The notes under the pieces are model-generated. The model saw only the letters and a list, made by a program, of their open reading frames with translations, was not told the DNA's origin and made no database searches. The translations under genes and the position numbers were made by a program. From contig CP071032.1 of assembly GCA_017134815.1 (NCBI GenBank), positions 1 to 64,000 of the forward strand: a stretch of DNA of 64,000 nt. The letters run 5' to 3'. Positions 20,116 through 25,371 of the stretch are shown piece by piece (position 1 is the stretch's first letter; each line of letters opens with the position of its first letter). Source of the DNA: Lentisphaerota bacterium. Its GTDB lineage: Bacteria; Verrucomicrobiota; Lentisphaeria; Victivallales; Victivallaceae.

Positions 20116-22626
20116 ATGGCAGATAATCTGGTTATAGTGGAGTCCCCGACAAAAGCTCGTACTATTGGCAAAATGTTGGGCAGCAACTATAAAATCTTGG
20201 CTTCGATGGGACACGTACGTGACCTGCCGGAGCATTCTTTTGGTGTGGACTTGAAAAATCACTTTGAGCCAAAGTATGTCGAGAACTCACGCAGTAAAAA
20301 GGTTGTTAAGGAACTGAGGTCAGCGGCTAAAAAGGCAAAAGCTATTTTTCTGGCGCCTGACCCGGACCGTGAGGGAGAGGCTATTGCCTGGCATCTGCAG
20401 GAGCTGCTTGCTCCGCAGTTTGAAGGCGACTTTCAACGGGTGACATTCCATGAGATTACCAAGAGTGCTATTTCCAGAGCTTTTGAACATGCTACCAGCT
20501 TGAATATGAATCTGGTAGATGCTCAGCAGGCCCGCCGGGTTCTTGACCGGCTGGTTGGTTACAAAGTAAGTCCACTTCTCTGGTCACATATTGTTCGCGG
20601 CACCAGTGCCGGCAGGGTCCAGACTGTAGCTTTGCGGCTGGTGGTAGAACGCGAAAGAGAAATTCTTGATTTTAAGCCGGAAGAATACTGGACTTTTTCG
20701 CTGATTCTTGAAGCTGACGGGAAAAAGTTCGAGGTAAAACTCTTTAAAATAAACGGCAATAAGTTCAAAATAGACAATGAGCAGGATGCCGCTGCACTGC
20801 TGGAAGCTGTTCTTAACGGTGATGGTTTTACAGTAGATTCCATCGAGACCAGTGATCGTCGCCGCAATGCTCCGCCCCCGTTTACTACCAGCACACTGCA
20901 GCAGGCTGCCAACAACATGTTGCGTATGTCAGCCAGCAATACTATGCGGGTTGCCCAGCAGCTTTATGAAGGCATTGATACCGGTGCCGGGCAGTTTGGT
21001 CTTATTACTTATATGCGTACTGACTCTGTTAATATTGCCAGAGAGGCTCAGGCTGCCTGCCGCGATTTTATTGGCAATAATTTTGGTCAGGATTATGTAC
21101 CGCCAAAGCCTAATTTTTACAAAAGTAAATCCGGTGCACAGGAAGCGCATGAAGCCATTAGACCGACTGATGTTACAATAACACCTGAGAGCATCAGGGG
21201 TAAGCTGGATGATCACCAGTATAAACTTTATAACCTGATCTGGAAGAGATTTGTCGCCAGCCAGATGTCAAAAGCTTTGCAGAGACAGACTGCGGTTAAC
21301 ATCATTAATCACGGAGCTGACGGCAAGTCCTATATTTTCCGGGCAAATGCCATGGTTACGGTTTTTCCCGGTTTCTTGAAAATGTTCGGAGAGCCGACTT
21401 CACAGGAAGCGGTTCAGCACGCGCAGGTGCTTGGCAGTTTAAGGGAAGAACAGCCGTGCGGCCTGGTTGATTCTAAAAAGGAACAGAAGTTTACTGAACC
21501 GCCGCCGCGCTACTCTGAGGCCGCGTTGATCAAGGCTCTGGAGGAAAACGGTATTGGCCGTCCTTCCACTTATGCCACAATTCTAAGAACAATCCAGACC
21601 AGAAATTATGTTGAGCGGGAAAAGGGCAAACTGCACCCTACAGAGCTTGGGTTTAAAGTCTGTGATTTTCTGATCAGTATTTTGCCGAATTTATTTGAAG
21701 TTGACTTCACTTCAAAAATGGAGACGCTGCTGGATAATGTTGAGGAGGGAAAACTTGGCTGGACCCAGATGCTGGAAAAATTTTATGACAGCTTCAGTAA
21801 CTGGGTTGAGGAGGCAAAAGCTATCGGTGCGCCTGATGCCGAAAAAGCCGGTATTCTGCTTGGGCAACTGGAAAAAATCCAGAACTGGGCGCCTGCTGAG
21901 AAGCGCGGCCGCCGCACCTATGATGACAGTAAATTTTATAAGTCAATTCGTGATAAATATGCTGAAGAGCCCAAGCTGACTGCGAGGCAGTGGGGAGTAC
22001 TGCTCAGGCTTGGAGCCAAATACATTGCGGAGCTGCCTGAATTGAAAGCTCTGTCTGAAAAGCATGACTTTGCCGGAGAATTAGAAGAAGCGGTTGCCAA
22101 GCAGAAAGAGCTGGAAGAAAAGCTGGCTAATGGACCAAGTGAGACTGATATCAAGCGAATGAAGCATGTTCTGAGCTTCTTTGAGAAAGTTCAATGGGCA
22201 GAGCCTGTAAAGCGGGGAAGACGAACTTATGATGACAAGAAATTCTTTACCTCATTTACAAAACAGGTTGACCAGGGCAGACTTCTATCAGAGAAACAGC
22301 TTGGTGTACTGCAGCGCTTTGCTGTAAAATATCGTGAAGGTATTGAACAGTACGAAGCTCTTTGCAGGCTGATTGGAATTGACCCTAATCAGACTGAGGA
22401 AGAAGTTGATGCCGGTGGCAAGCCTGCAGAGCAGGACCCCGAGGTTCAGAAAATGCTTGATACCATGGCAAAGGTAACTGCCTGGGCGGAGCCGGTAAAG
22501 AAAGGGAAAAGGGTTTTTGACGATAAAGCCTTTTTTGAATCCCTGGCCAAACAGGCATCGGCCGGCCGCAAACTGTCACCGCGTCAGGCCGGAGCATTGA
22601 AGAAGCTGGTTGTTAAGTACTCCTGA
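20116..22626 (+). CDS. topA: DNA topoisomerase I with atypical C-terminal repeats
   Basis: 836 residues. Relaxes negative supercoils by single-strand passage. TOPRIM domain: VIVESPTKARTIGKML at the N-terminus and DPDREGEAIAWHL near residue 82. The active tyrosine is in LITYMRTDS, about residue 299. The core ends with EENGIGRPSTYATI and LHPTELG. The usual C-terminal zinc ribbons are absent: no CxxC pairs remain after the core. Instead there are three repeats of about 50 to 55 residues (roughly 585-640, 690-745, 784-836), each with W, P, KRGRRTYDD or similar, a phenylalanine-rich helix and a closing KY. They may replace the zinc fingers in DNA binding; this is inference. Confidence 0.95.
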   Translation: MADNLVIVESPTKARTIGKMLGSNYKILASMGHVRDLPEHSFGVDLKNHFEPKYVENSRSKKVVKELRSAAKKAKAIFLAPDPDREGEAIAWHLQELLAPQFEGDFQRVTFHEITKSAISRAFEHATSLNMNLVDAQQARRVLDRLVGYKVSPLLWSHIVRGTSAGRVQTVALRLVVEREREILDFKPEEYWTFSLILEADGKKFEVKLFKINGNKFKIDNEQDAAALLEAVLNGDGFTVDSIETSDRRRNAPPPFTTSTLQQAANNMLRMSASNTMRVAQQLYEGIDTGAGQFGLITYMRTDSVNIAREAQAACRDFIGNNFGQDYVPPKPNFYKSKSGAQEAHEAIRPTDVTITPESIRGKLDDHQYKLYNLIWKRFVASQMSKALQRQTAVNIINHGADGKSYIFRANAMVTVFPGFLKMFGEPTSQEAVQHAQVLGSLREEQPCGLVDSKKEQKFTEPPPRYSEAALIKALEENGIGRPSTYATILRTIQTRNYVEREKGKLHPTELGFKVCDFLISILPNLFEVDFTSKMETLLDNVEEGKLGWTQMLEKFYDSFSNWVEEAKAIGAPDAEKAGILLGQLEKIQNWAPAEKRGRRTYDDSKFYKSIRDKYAEEPKLTARQWGVLLRLGAKYIAELPELKALSEKHDFAGELEEAVAKQKELEEKLANGPSETDIKRMKHVLSFFEKVQWAEPVKRGRRTYDDKKFFTSFTKQVDQGRLLSEKQLGVLQRFAVKYREGIEQYEALCRLIGIDPNQTEEEVDAGGKPAEQDPEVQKMLDTMAKVTAWAEPVKKGKRVFDDKAFFESLAKQASAGRKLSPRQAGALKKLVVKYS

Positions 22627-22649
22627 CAGTTTTATAAATTTAATTTTGA

Positions 22650-22764: not shown

Positions 22765-24030
22765 ATGCTTCAGAGAGTAATTAAAGCTTTTGCCTGGGTT
22801 ATTATAATTGTACTGGTATATTTGCTCTTTACGTTTCGCTATGATATTTCAAAACGTACAGGGCACGGTTTGAAGCGCAGATTTGAACCGCCAGAGTTCT
22901 TCTGGAGAAGCAGGGAGAATCGCAAGGGCGCCAATTTTTTCAATGTTAAAGAACAGTCTAAACGTATTGCTGCTGCACGTAAGTTCGGACTGTCCTGGAT
23001 CAGACTTACTCCTTCCAAATGGCATTCTTCCGTACCTGGGGCGGTTCCTGGAGATTTTCTGATTGGACATAATGGATATAAAGGACTTAACAAAAAAGAC
23101 CTGGCGGTTCTGGAGAAAATTTTAGATGAGGCTTTGACAGCTAAAATTAAGGTTGTTTTGACATTCCTTGATTTTCCCGGACATCGCTGGACTCAGCATA
23201 ACAACGGTAAACCTGACCGCAGAATATGGCAGAGCTTTGAAGAGCAGAAAAAGGCTATCAGATTTTTTACTGATATTGCTGCTGCTTTGCGGCATCATCC
23301 AGCTCTGGTGGGGATTAACCCTGTCAATGAGCCATGTCCAGAGCTTGCCGGGAAAAGACTCAAAGACTGGTATGCGGATAATTACGAAAAGTGGGCGGCT
23401 AGCGTTAAAGGCACTCCTCAGGATTTAAACCTTTTCTATAAAAAACTGGTCAAAAGCATTCGCAAGGTTGCTCCTGAATTACCGATAATACTTGATTGCG
23501 GTTACTTTGCTACGCCCTGGGCTTTCAAGGTGCTGGAGCCGGTAGATGATGACAATACATACTATGCATTTCATGTTTACGAACCCTGCAGTTTTACATT
23601 TCAGCGGCCTAAAGATGGGAATTACAGTTATCCCGGAGTTTCCCCGTTTGGACAGATGGAGGCGGCTGATACCGGAGTTAACTGGAATAAAGAAACTCTT
23701 GAAAACATACTTCTGCAGCCGGTTACTGACTGGCAGCGCCGCTACGGGATTCCTTCCAGAAAAATAATTGCAGCCGAATTTGGCGTATTCAGAACAGCTC
23801 CCGGTGCTGATAAATACCTTGAGGATCTGATAGATATTTTCAATCATTACGGCTGGCATTGGGCATTTTATTCATTCAGAGAGGACTCCTGGGATAAAAT
23901 GGACTATGAACTGGGTACCGGGGCTGTACCGCAGAAATACTGGAATGATATAGAGAACGGCCGGTTGTTTGACTACGGGAGAATACAGGATAAAAAGCTG
24001 GTCAAAATAATAAAGAACGGTTTGAAGTAA
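22765..24030 (+). CDS. Membrane-anchored glycoside hydrolase family 5 enzyme
   Basis: 421 residues. An N-terminal hydrophobic helix (about residues 10-25) with few residues before it suggests a membrane anchor or uncleaved signal, so the enzyme acts outside the inner membrane. TIM-barrel signatures: LSWIRLTPSKWH early, VGINPVNEP with the acid/base glutamate at about 189, YYAFHVYEP, and IIAAEFGV with the nucleophile glutamate at about 338. WHWAFYSFREDSWDKMDYELG near the end is typical of GH5. Likely a beta-glucanase or mannanase; the exact substrate is unknown. Follows topA after a strong terminator, so separately expressed. Confidence 0.88.
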   Translation: MLQRVIKAFAWVIIIVLVYLLFTFRYDISKRTGHGLKRRFEPPEFFWRSRENRKGANFFNVKEQSKRIAAARKFGLSWIRLTPSKWHSSVPGAVPGDFLIGHNGYKGLNKKDLAVLEKILDEALTAKIKVVLTFLDFPGHRWTQHNNGKPDRRIWQSFEEQKKAIRFFTDIAAALRHHPALVGINPVNEPCPELAGKRLKDWYADNYEKWAASVKGTPQDLNLFYKKLVKSIRKVAPELPIILDCGYFATPWAFKVLEPVDDDNTYYAFHVYEPCSFTFQRPKDGNYSYPGVSPFGQMEAADTGVNWNKETLENILLQPVTDWQRRYGIPSRKIIAAEFGVFRTAPGADKYLEDLIDIFNHYGWHWAFYSFREDSWDKMDYELGTGAVPQKYWNDIENGRLFDYGRIQDKKLVKIIKNGLK

Positions 24031-24093: not shown

Positions 24094-25371
24094 TCAGCTT
24101 CTTTTTTCGAGATAGCCGCGAATTATTCGATGCAGATTACGGTGTCTGCCGTCCGGCAGGTTAAAGCGTTCGCAGACTTCCTTGATTATTTTTGCCGTAT
24201 GGAAAACGTAGCCGCTGGCTAAATCCGCAGCGGTACGCTGCAGGCTCATTCTAATATCCGGTATTCGGCAGGTGGCGGTATTGGCTGGAGTATGCTTACG
24301 AGTTGCCGGTGCGCCGTCCAGAGCGATGCCTTCGACATTTTCGAGCCTGACTTTTATTGTCAGCATTTCTTCCTCATAGTCCATTTCCGAGTAAAGCCGA
24401 CTGAAAAAAACAATGGCCTCTGCAAAAAAACGAACCAGCCAGTGATAGTTGATTATTTTATGAGGTGCAGGCCAGTATTCAAGGTAGTTAAACATACCGG
24501 TCTGGAAAAACTGCCACATTTTCAACTCATTATCAGGCAGTGAACGCAGCGCGACATTAGAGAAATAGGCTTCCTGCATATCTTTTTCGCTGACAAAATC
24601 AGGCTCTGAAAGCAGTGACAAAGCTCCTTGAGCAAAGCGCTTAATTTCAGATAAGGAGTACTTTCCGGTAATATATTCCTGAGGGTATACCGAGATCTGA
24701 ACAAGTACTGCCGGTGTATCTTTTTTATGCGGGTGCCTTCTCCTGAGAAAATAATTCTTTCCATTTGAACTGTCTTCGAGAAAATGTCCTTCCTCGCTTT
24801 TAAGCGGAATGTCACGATTTTCGTAAAGCACGCCGCGAATCATCTTTCCAAGCAGTTCACGCTGGTTTCTCAGAGCACGCTGGACCAGCGCATGAATTTC
24901 ACTGGCCCGATAGGCGGGGCGACTGGCCGCATCAGCGGTCCGGATGTAAAACACACCCTGTTGAAGTTCATTGTTAAAACCGTATGCACAGACATGCGGA
25001 ATGTCCGCAAAGCGCCTGATTACAAAAATTGCGTATCTTTTGCCGTCAACAACAGGTCTTTCCAGGGTGAAATCAATCTCAGGATCGGCGTATTTATTGA
25101 TGAAGTTACCGATCATTGTGGGGTCAAATGATTTGGCCTGCTCTTTACTCAGGCCGGTGAAGAGCGAAGGCTGCCCGGCAGAATCTTCACCAACACCGAC
25201 GACAATGTAGCCGCCCTTGGTATTGGCGAGCGCCATGCAGTGCCGGGCAAACTTTGCCCGGCCGGTCCGGTTCAGCCGATTCCAGTTTATCGCGGCTTTA
25301 TAGTCGAGTTCTTCCGACTCTACACCGCGGTAAACAATGCTGCTCCAATCTATTGCGATGTCATCAGGCAT
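24094..25371 (-). CDS. AlbA_2/Schlafen-domain protein
   Basis: 425 residues. The N-terminal about 170 residues match the divergent AAA_4/AlbA_2 (Schlafen-like) domain: ESEELDYKAAINW, FARHCMALANTKGGYIVVGV and GVFYIRTADAASRPA. No winged-helix tail typical of transcriptional regulators was recognised; the C-terminal half is unassigned. Related domains occur in regulators and in Schlafen nucleases, so nucleic-acid binding is a reasonable guess. It starts three bases after the stop of the carboxymuconolactone-decarboxylase-like gene, so the two share a transcript. Confidence 0.78.
   Translation of the reverse strand: MPDDIAIDWSSIVYRGVESEELDYKAAINWNRLNRTGRAKFARHCMALANTKGGYIVVGVGEDSAGQPSLFTGLSKEQAKSFDPTMIGNFINKYADPEIDFTLERPVVDGKRYAIFVIRRFADIPHVCAYGFNNELQQGVFYIRTADAASRPAYRASEIHALVQRALRNQRELLGKMIRGVLYENRDIPLKSEEGHFLEDSSNGKNYFLRRRHPHKKDTPAVLVQISVYPQEYITGKYSLSEIKRFAQGALSLLSEPDFVSEKDMQEAYFSNVALRSLPDNELKMWQFFQTGMFNYLEYWPAPHKIINYHWLVRFFAEAIVFFSRLYSEMDYEEEMLTIKVRLENVEGIALDGAPATRKHTPANTATCRIPDIRMSLQRTAADLASGYVFHTAKIIKEVCERFNLPDGRHRNLHRIIRGYLEKRS

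Follow-up and report, generated by a model that had tools for sequence, protein, structure and literature searches.

A three-unit tail without cysteine pairs on the DNA topoisomerase I of a Lentisphaerota bacterium, and its kinship by profile comparison with a small helicase-borne domain

The way in which a type IA topoisomerase finds single-stranded DNA and its partners depends on its C-terminal domains. The DNA analysed here, a 64,000-nucleotide stretch of a Lentisphaerota genome (hereafter the window), contains a topA gene in which the catalytic core is followed by a region without the CxxC pairs of zinc ribbons, raising the question of what this enzyme carries in their place and what the replacement might do. 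In E. coli, the TopA C-terminal domains bind single-stranded DNA and RNA polymerase and recognise negative supercoiling, according to the openly available text of PMC4678816. Two major types of bacterial TopA tail are described in the main text of PMC9369019, both of which contain a four-stranded sheet according to the openly available text of PMC10969213.

The topA gene and its three-unit tail

TIGR01051 covers TopA residues 5–569 with an E-value of 1.8e-217 and a score of 724 bits, against a curated cut-off of 456. Pfam detects the Toprim and Topoisom_bac (PF01131) domains, and the motifs TYMRTDS, at residue 298, and DPDREGEAIAWHL, at residue 82, are present. With a full core above the cut-off and catalytic motifs, the window protein is a bacterial DNA topoisomerase I. 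A PF01131 search of the 3.2-Mb single-contig genome found topA and no other gene, and TopA is apparently the sole type IA enzyme of the source genome. The features of the gene are as follows.

20116–22626, forward strand: topA, DNA topoisomerase I, 836 residues, an intact and complete open reading frame
20116–21822, forward strand: catalytic type IA core (Toprim and Topoisom_bac), to about residue 569, motifs intact, from profiles and motifs
21856–22047, forward strand: repeat unit 1, residues 581–644, from profile matches
22048–22167, forward strand: linker between units 1 and 2, poorly conserved (mean identity of linkers 21%)
22168–22356, forward strand: repeat unit 2, residues 685–747, from profile matches; predicted helix, beta hairpin, helix, helix
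22357–22452, forward strand: linker between units 2 and 3, poorly conserved (mean identity of linkers 21%)
22453–22623, forward strand: repeat unit 3, residues 780–836, ending the protein, from profile matches; best helicase-domain-profile match of the genome (E 1.8e-6)

The initial annotation had read the region behind the core as three tandem repeats without CxxC pairs, and a leave-out profile and a scan of the tail confirm this. Specifically, a profile of 85 units from other TopAs, excluding the source genome and its genus mate, was run against the 1089 reading frames of the window in six-frame translation, and exactly units 1–3 rose above noise (E 6.7e-23, 7.5e-26 and 7.3e-25). The tail contains one cysteine and no CxxC, and CxxC is absent from all 30 TopA tails scanned, the window's tail included. 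Three details of the annotation need adjustment: the units measure 57–64 residues rather than about 50–55; the shared motif, given as KRGRRTYDD or KGKRVFDD, reads KKGKRVFDD in unit 3; and the glutamine said to end the first FF or FY helix does so in units 2 and 3 but not in unit 1, the glutamine that is invariant in 28 of 28 aligned units being located one helix later (LSxxQ).

Relative to unit 1, sequence identity is 44% for unit 2 and 36% for unit 3. The net charge is +5, +4 and +8 for units 1–3, a modest +9 for the entire tail and +1 for the core, and acidic residues (DD) are also present in every unit. A unit-profile search of the source genome found the repeat in TopA only; a fourth row, in a 59-residue frame at E 0.88, was taken as chance.

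AlphaFold2, run on the tail with no alignment, predicts an identical order of elements in all three units (pLDDT 72, pTM 0.38), and a model of unit 2 from six sequences reaches a pLDDT of 85 and a pTM of 0.67. In the latter, a helix (positions 2–9) is followed by a beta hairpin (18–20 and 23–25) and two further helices (27–39 and 46–58). Specifically, the predicted hairpin corresponds to VKR-GR-RTY, the helix after it begins with the second D of YDD, and the final helix begins with LSEKQ. Neither Foldseek nor VIA-align revealed a significant relative of the tail or of one unit. The best Foldseek E-values in the PDB were 0.084 (tail) and 2.2 (one unit), and the best among viral models was 0.16; VIA-align Z did not exceed 3.9, and rows for bromodomains at Z about 3 were read as a common helical arrangement. 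The lack of a match does not establish that the fold is new.

Spread across the phylum and known tail domains

Genome counts given here refer to genomes of the window's phylum only, taken to be Verrucomicrobiota as GTDB defines it, with the window's class taken to lie near Lentisphaeria. With the unit profile A1 at E ≤ 0.01, the repeat is found in 247 of 387 sampled genomes, and a manual count gave exactly three A1 matches in 235 of the 247 repeat-bearing genomes. In the window's class, 128 of 131 genomes have at least one A1 match, and the three members without a match are drafts of 84–88% estimated completeness. The three-unit tail is a lineage trait. An insensitive scan beyond the phylum matched 19 stretches and returned one relative (L033). 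In the window's order, one TopA (L031, genome G129) was observed to carry four repeat units, not three.

A tree of 91 units from 30 TopAs, which has few columns and many open forks and omits L018 because a stop splits its frame, shows grouping mostly by position in the protein rather than by organism, with 4 changes of unit-position label versus 44.0 when labels are shuffled. The exceptions are unit 1 of L015 and of L023, which fall beside unit 3, and unit 1 of L033, which stands apart. Since the units group by position, the triplication is inferred to be mostly older than the sampled lineages. Across 29 relatives, mean identity to the window TopA is 63% for the core, 44, 49 and 57% for units 1–3, and 21% for the linkers.

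A search with the full-length window TopA at E 1e-50 gave no match in 101 of 288 genomes. Re-searching 13 such genomes with PF01131 revealed a type IA enzyme in 11 and none in 2 (both about 84% complete). These enzymes are divergent, scoring 70–116 bits by phmmer with the window TopA (12 of the loci L034–L048, with E 1e-20 passed), and Toprim_Crpt (PF13342) repeats are present in all ten Pfam-scanned type IA proteins, from nine genomes without the repeat. Because ten of ten scanned type IA enzymes from lineages without the repeat (L034–L046) combine a divergent core with Toprim_Crpt, the phylum is apparently split between two type IA enzymes. The Toprim_Crpt repeats of the second enzyme are likewise tandem and occupy the same position, but they are unrelated to the TopA units by profile (hhalign probability 5.8% only) and are borne on a more divergent type IA core.

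Pfam and NCBIfam searches with the tail and with 28 single units gave no matching family, and a PDB sequence search with the tail and the unit profile gave nothing significant. In particular, Topo_C_ZnRpt (PF01396), PF13368, PF13342, PF08272 and SWIB all gave no match for the tail at E ≤ 10 or for the 28 units at E ≤ 1. The four zinc cysteines of Topo_C_ZnRpt are absent, the tail has no GPY anywhere, as the Topo_C_Rpt (PF13368) signature GR(F/Y)GPY would demand, and the four-stranded antiparallel sheet plus helix of Topo_C_Rpt is absent from the predicted unit fold. Topo_C_ZnRpt and Topo_C_Rpt tails are likewise tandem small domains behind the D1–D4 core and, by analogy, would be holders of single-stranded DNA; unlike the units described here, their domains are four-stranded beta sheets with C4 zinc or GR(F/Y)GPY. 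Chlamydia TopA also ends in a non-standard domain, but its SWIB is single and occurs together with zinc fingers (openly available text of PMC12445093).

The initial annotation had suggested a new C-terminal module and had named two findings that would speak against it, a match to a known domain such as SWIB and an earlier description of a lineage-wide zinc-less finger. Neither turned up, the former in Pfam and NCBIfam and the latter in the open-licence literature on type IA tails (titles, abstract starts and passages of main text), although the tail is indeed lineage-wide, and the suggestion of a new module is supported to that extent. Verrucomicrobia, Lentisphaerae, Chlamydia and Planctomycetes all go unmentioned in the main text of PMC9369019.

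A two-helix core in common with helicases

Among PHROGs, the TopA tail retrieved phrog_21015 (E 4.3e-7) and phrog_27072 (E 3.7e-7), both annotated as function unknown; of the 28 units searched singly, 16 also match phrog_21015 at E ≤ 1. Tracing phrog_21015 through its relatives brought up a Pif1-like helicase from the window's own bacterial family (PIF1 domain by Pfam; locus L082, identical to L095, genome G028), and a tblastn search of phages brought up a Thermus phage helicase bearing an SNF2 domain, along with standalone phage proteins about 100 residues long. The phrog_27072 profile matched 20 of 194 genomes, and all 26 rows listed lie in TopA-size frames (835–937 residues), so that no further protein was found.

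We aligned 12 helicase and phage domains, without TopA, as alignment A2 (consensus NGVGFNxxDAxIxxxLA...LTxxQ...RKxxxKYxGQL). Comparison of A1 with A2 by hhalign gave a probability of 97.3% (E 2.2e-11, 37 columns), and 97.4% in the reverse direction. Unit positions 1–3 taken singly gave 96.5, 97.1 and 96.5%, while subsets of A2 gave 90.2% (SNF2), 97.0% (standalone) and 85.5% (the eight Pif1-type sequences). Over 100 shuffles of the A2 columns, the probability never exceeded 20.9% and the score never exceeded 19.2, versus 51.7 for the real alignment. Furthermore, A2 matched 30 of 30 isolated tails at E 9.6e-10 or better (3.5e-18 for the window's tail); none of 3000 shuffled tails came through at 1e-3, and no TopA core did better than 0.018.

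In the strongest check, which leaves the choice of partner to the search, the A2 profile was run over 194 genomes of the phylum and matched 90 at E ≤ 0.001. The ten best rows are not TopA and lie in frames of 587–620 residues (seven), 713–728 residues (two) and 105 residues (one). Seven of these ten were read as loci and look Pif1-like by eye, a single one of them (L082) being Pfam-scanned; the L082 gene is itself a row of A2, so its match is by construction. Below the ten best, nearly all rows lie in TopA-sized frames, and 20 of the 22 loci L103–L124 coincide with TopA coordinates, the other two being absent from the TopA coordinate listing. The window TopA was caught at 22522–22635 (E 1.8e-6) and 22234–22338 (E 8.8e-4). 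The rows include at least one that does not resemble TopA (G096, 482 residues, E 6.5e-4), and some further rows lie in short frames.

The domain motif also occurs in plasmid DEAD/DEAH-box helicases, at residue 700 of 999 in Rhodovastum (E 3e-5) and near residue 28 in Mycolicibacterium and Rhodococcus, where the E-values of 0.8 and 0.04, respectively, mean that both assignments rest on the visible motif. The plasmid helicase carriers (L136–L138) belong to Alphaproteobacteria and Actinomycetes. The bare unit consensus had no match in phages and plasmids. Scanning viral contigs with one unit or one domain at a time gave no relative in two scans and one relative in each of three others; one of these (L135) was discarded, its ORFs being unlike the domain when read. 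Rows at E about 1 to 9 (those of mycobacteriophage, Gordonia and Mesorhizobium and the weakest from plasmids) were put down to chance and set aside. Two Streptococcus rows (53% covered, E 8) were also set aside, and Gordonia FlyingTortilla was rejected because its match lies in a frame other than that of the annotated gene.

Profile comparison thus shows, as judged from sequence, that the two-helix core of the unit is homologous to a small, undescribed domain that is borne by phage SNF2-type, plasmid and Pif1-like helicases and also makes up standalone phage proteins. The expectation that the repeats recur in other DNA-binding proteins, set out in the initial annotation, holds for this core, which is found in SNF2-type, DEAD/DEAH and Pif1-like helicases. 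The homology spans 37–40 columns only (D, helix, LS/LT..Q, helix, KY); the preceding segment reads KRGRR.YDD in TopA units and NGxGFNxxD in helicases, and sameness of the two is not demonstrable. Since NGxGFNxxD is replaced by KRGRRxYDD, the TopA unit is a relative, not a plain member, of the phrog_21015-like domain.

The phrog_21015 proteins (standalone phage proteins of about 100 residues, e.g. Xanthomonas phage XacN1 ORF059) share the two-helix core D...L......LS/T..Q......KY..QL, but have it in single copy, with NGxGFN instead of KRGRRxYDD and no topoisomerase attached. Similarly, the C-terminal domain of the Pif1-like helicases of the same family and of the phage SNF2-type helicases (Thermus phages MN1 and phiLo) has a homologous core and belongs to DNA-acting enzymes, but is present in one copy on motor proteins, and the Pif1 subset alone scores lower (85.5%). 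In the Pif1-like helicases L082/L095 and L097–L102, from the same family and order, the C-terminal domain homologous to the repeat core is preceded by a conserved DIDHLLxVYxNQ stretch.

Proposed role of the tail

From these comparisons, the tail is most likely a nucleic-acid-binding region of a new, zinc-free kind. Our preferred reading, to which we assign a probability of roughly 0.6, is that a zinc-free tail in three copies, its core belonging to an undescribed helicase-borne family, holds single-stranded DNA near the gate for processive strand passage. Three small domains, each with a predicted helix, beta hairpin, helix, helix fold, would form a zinc-free accessory region on poorly conserved linkers; by position, they take the place of the zinc ribbons or Topo_C_Rpt of other TopAs. 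The basic, aromatic hairpin of each unit (W..P.KRGRR.Y) may be offered to nucleic acid; the tail would keep the single-stranded part of negatively supercoiled DNA close to the gate, and this holding would make strand passage processive. In this way, the units would do in the window TopA what zinc ribbons do in E. coli TopA. DNA binding by the units is plausible: where the enzyme domain of a helicase-domain carrier is known, that carrier acts on DNA. The main weakness is that the proposed contact hairpin falls just outside the region shown to be homologous to the helicase domain. We also consider it on balance probable that over a large part of the phylum TopA has a third, unrelated kind of tandem tail, which was triplicated early in the sampled lineage and is akin to a module found on phage and plasmid helicases, so that helicases and a topoisomerase have in common one undescribed nucleic-acid grip in place of zinc ribbons.

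The units could instead be protein-binding modules that dock TopA and the helicases to a common partner, such as RNA polymerase, SSB or a part of the replisome, with little DNA contact. In both E. coli and M. smegmatis, TopA contacts RNA polymerase through its C-terminal domains (openly available text of PMC10969213), and the helicase-borne domain is placed as an adaptor could be, near the N-terminal end of or inside plasmid helicases, C-terminally in phage and Pif1-like ones, and on its own in proteins of about 100 residues. However, the conserved candidate residues are basic plus W/Y, and because the carriers span phages and plasmids of distant hosts, a single conserved protein partner is less likely than nucleic acid. 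We therefore regard docking as unlikely.

Convergence of two short amphipathic helices, with the TopA repeat an unrelated, lineage-specific invention, seems decidedly improbable. A helix-turn-helix with LS..Q and KY could arise anew, the match covers just 37–40 columns with a differing hairpin segment, and the Pif1 subset alone reaches just 85.5%; yet the shuffled-column (≤ 20.9%) and shuffled-sequence (0 of 3000) controls are negative, and the A2 genome search caught, besides helicase-like ORFs, nearly only TopA tails. Drift of zinc ribbons, Topo_C_Rpt or Toprim_Crpt repeats past recognition would account for the equal place in the protein and the tandem repetition, and E. coli D8–D9 are ribbons with cysteines lost (main text of PMC9369019), but it is very hard to credit when PF01396, PF13368, PF13342 and PF08272 are all unmatched although PF13342 is found in ten of ten sister topoisomerases, when the profile–profile probability against Toprim_Crpt is only 5.8%, and when the unit fold is predicted to be mostly helical against the four-stranded sheets of the two known types (openly available text of PMC10969213).

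With its predicted helical, zinc-free tail, an enzyme that apparently has no type IA companion in its genome lets one ask which property of a tail is really needed. The units also offer a first handle on an unannotated domain recurring on phage, plasmid and chromosomal helicases.

Downstream of topA, the reading frame at 22765–24030 (forward strand) has, by eye, the look of a family 5-like glycoside hydrolase, and that at 24094–25371 (reverse strand) the look of an AlbA/Schlafen-type ATP-binding protein.
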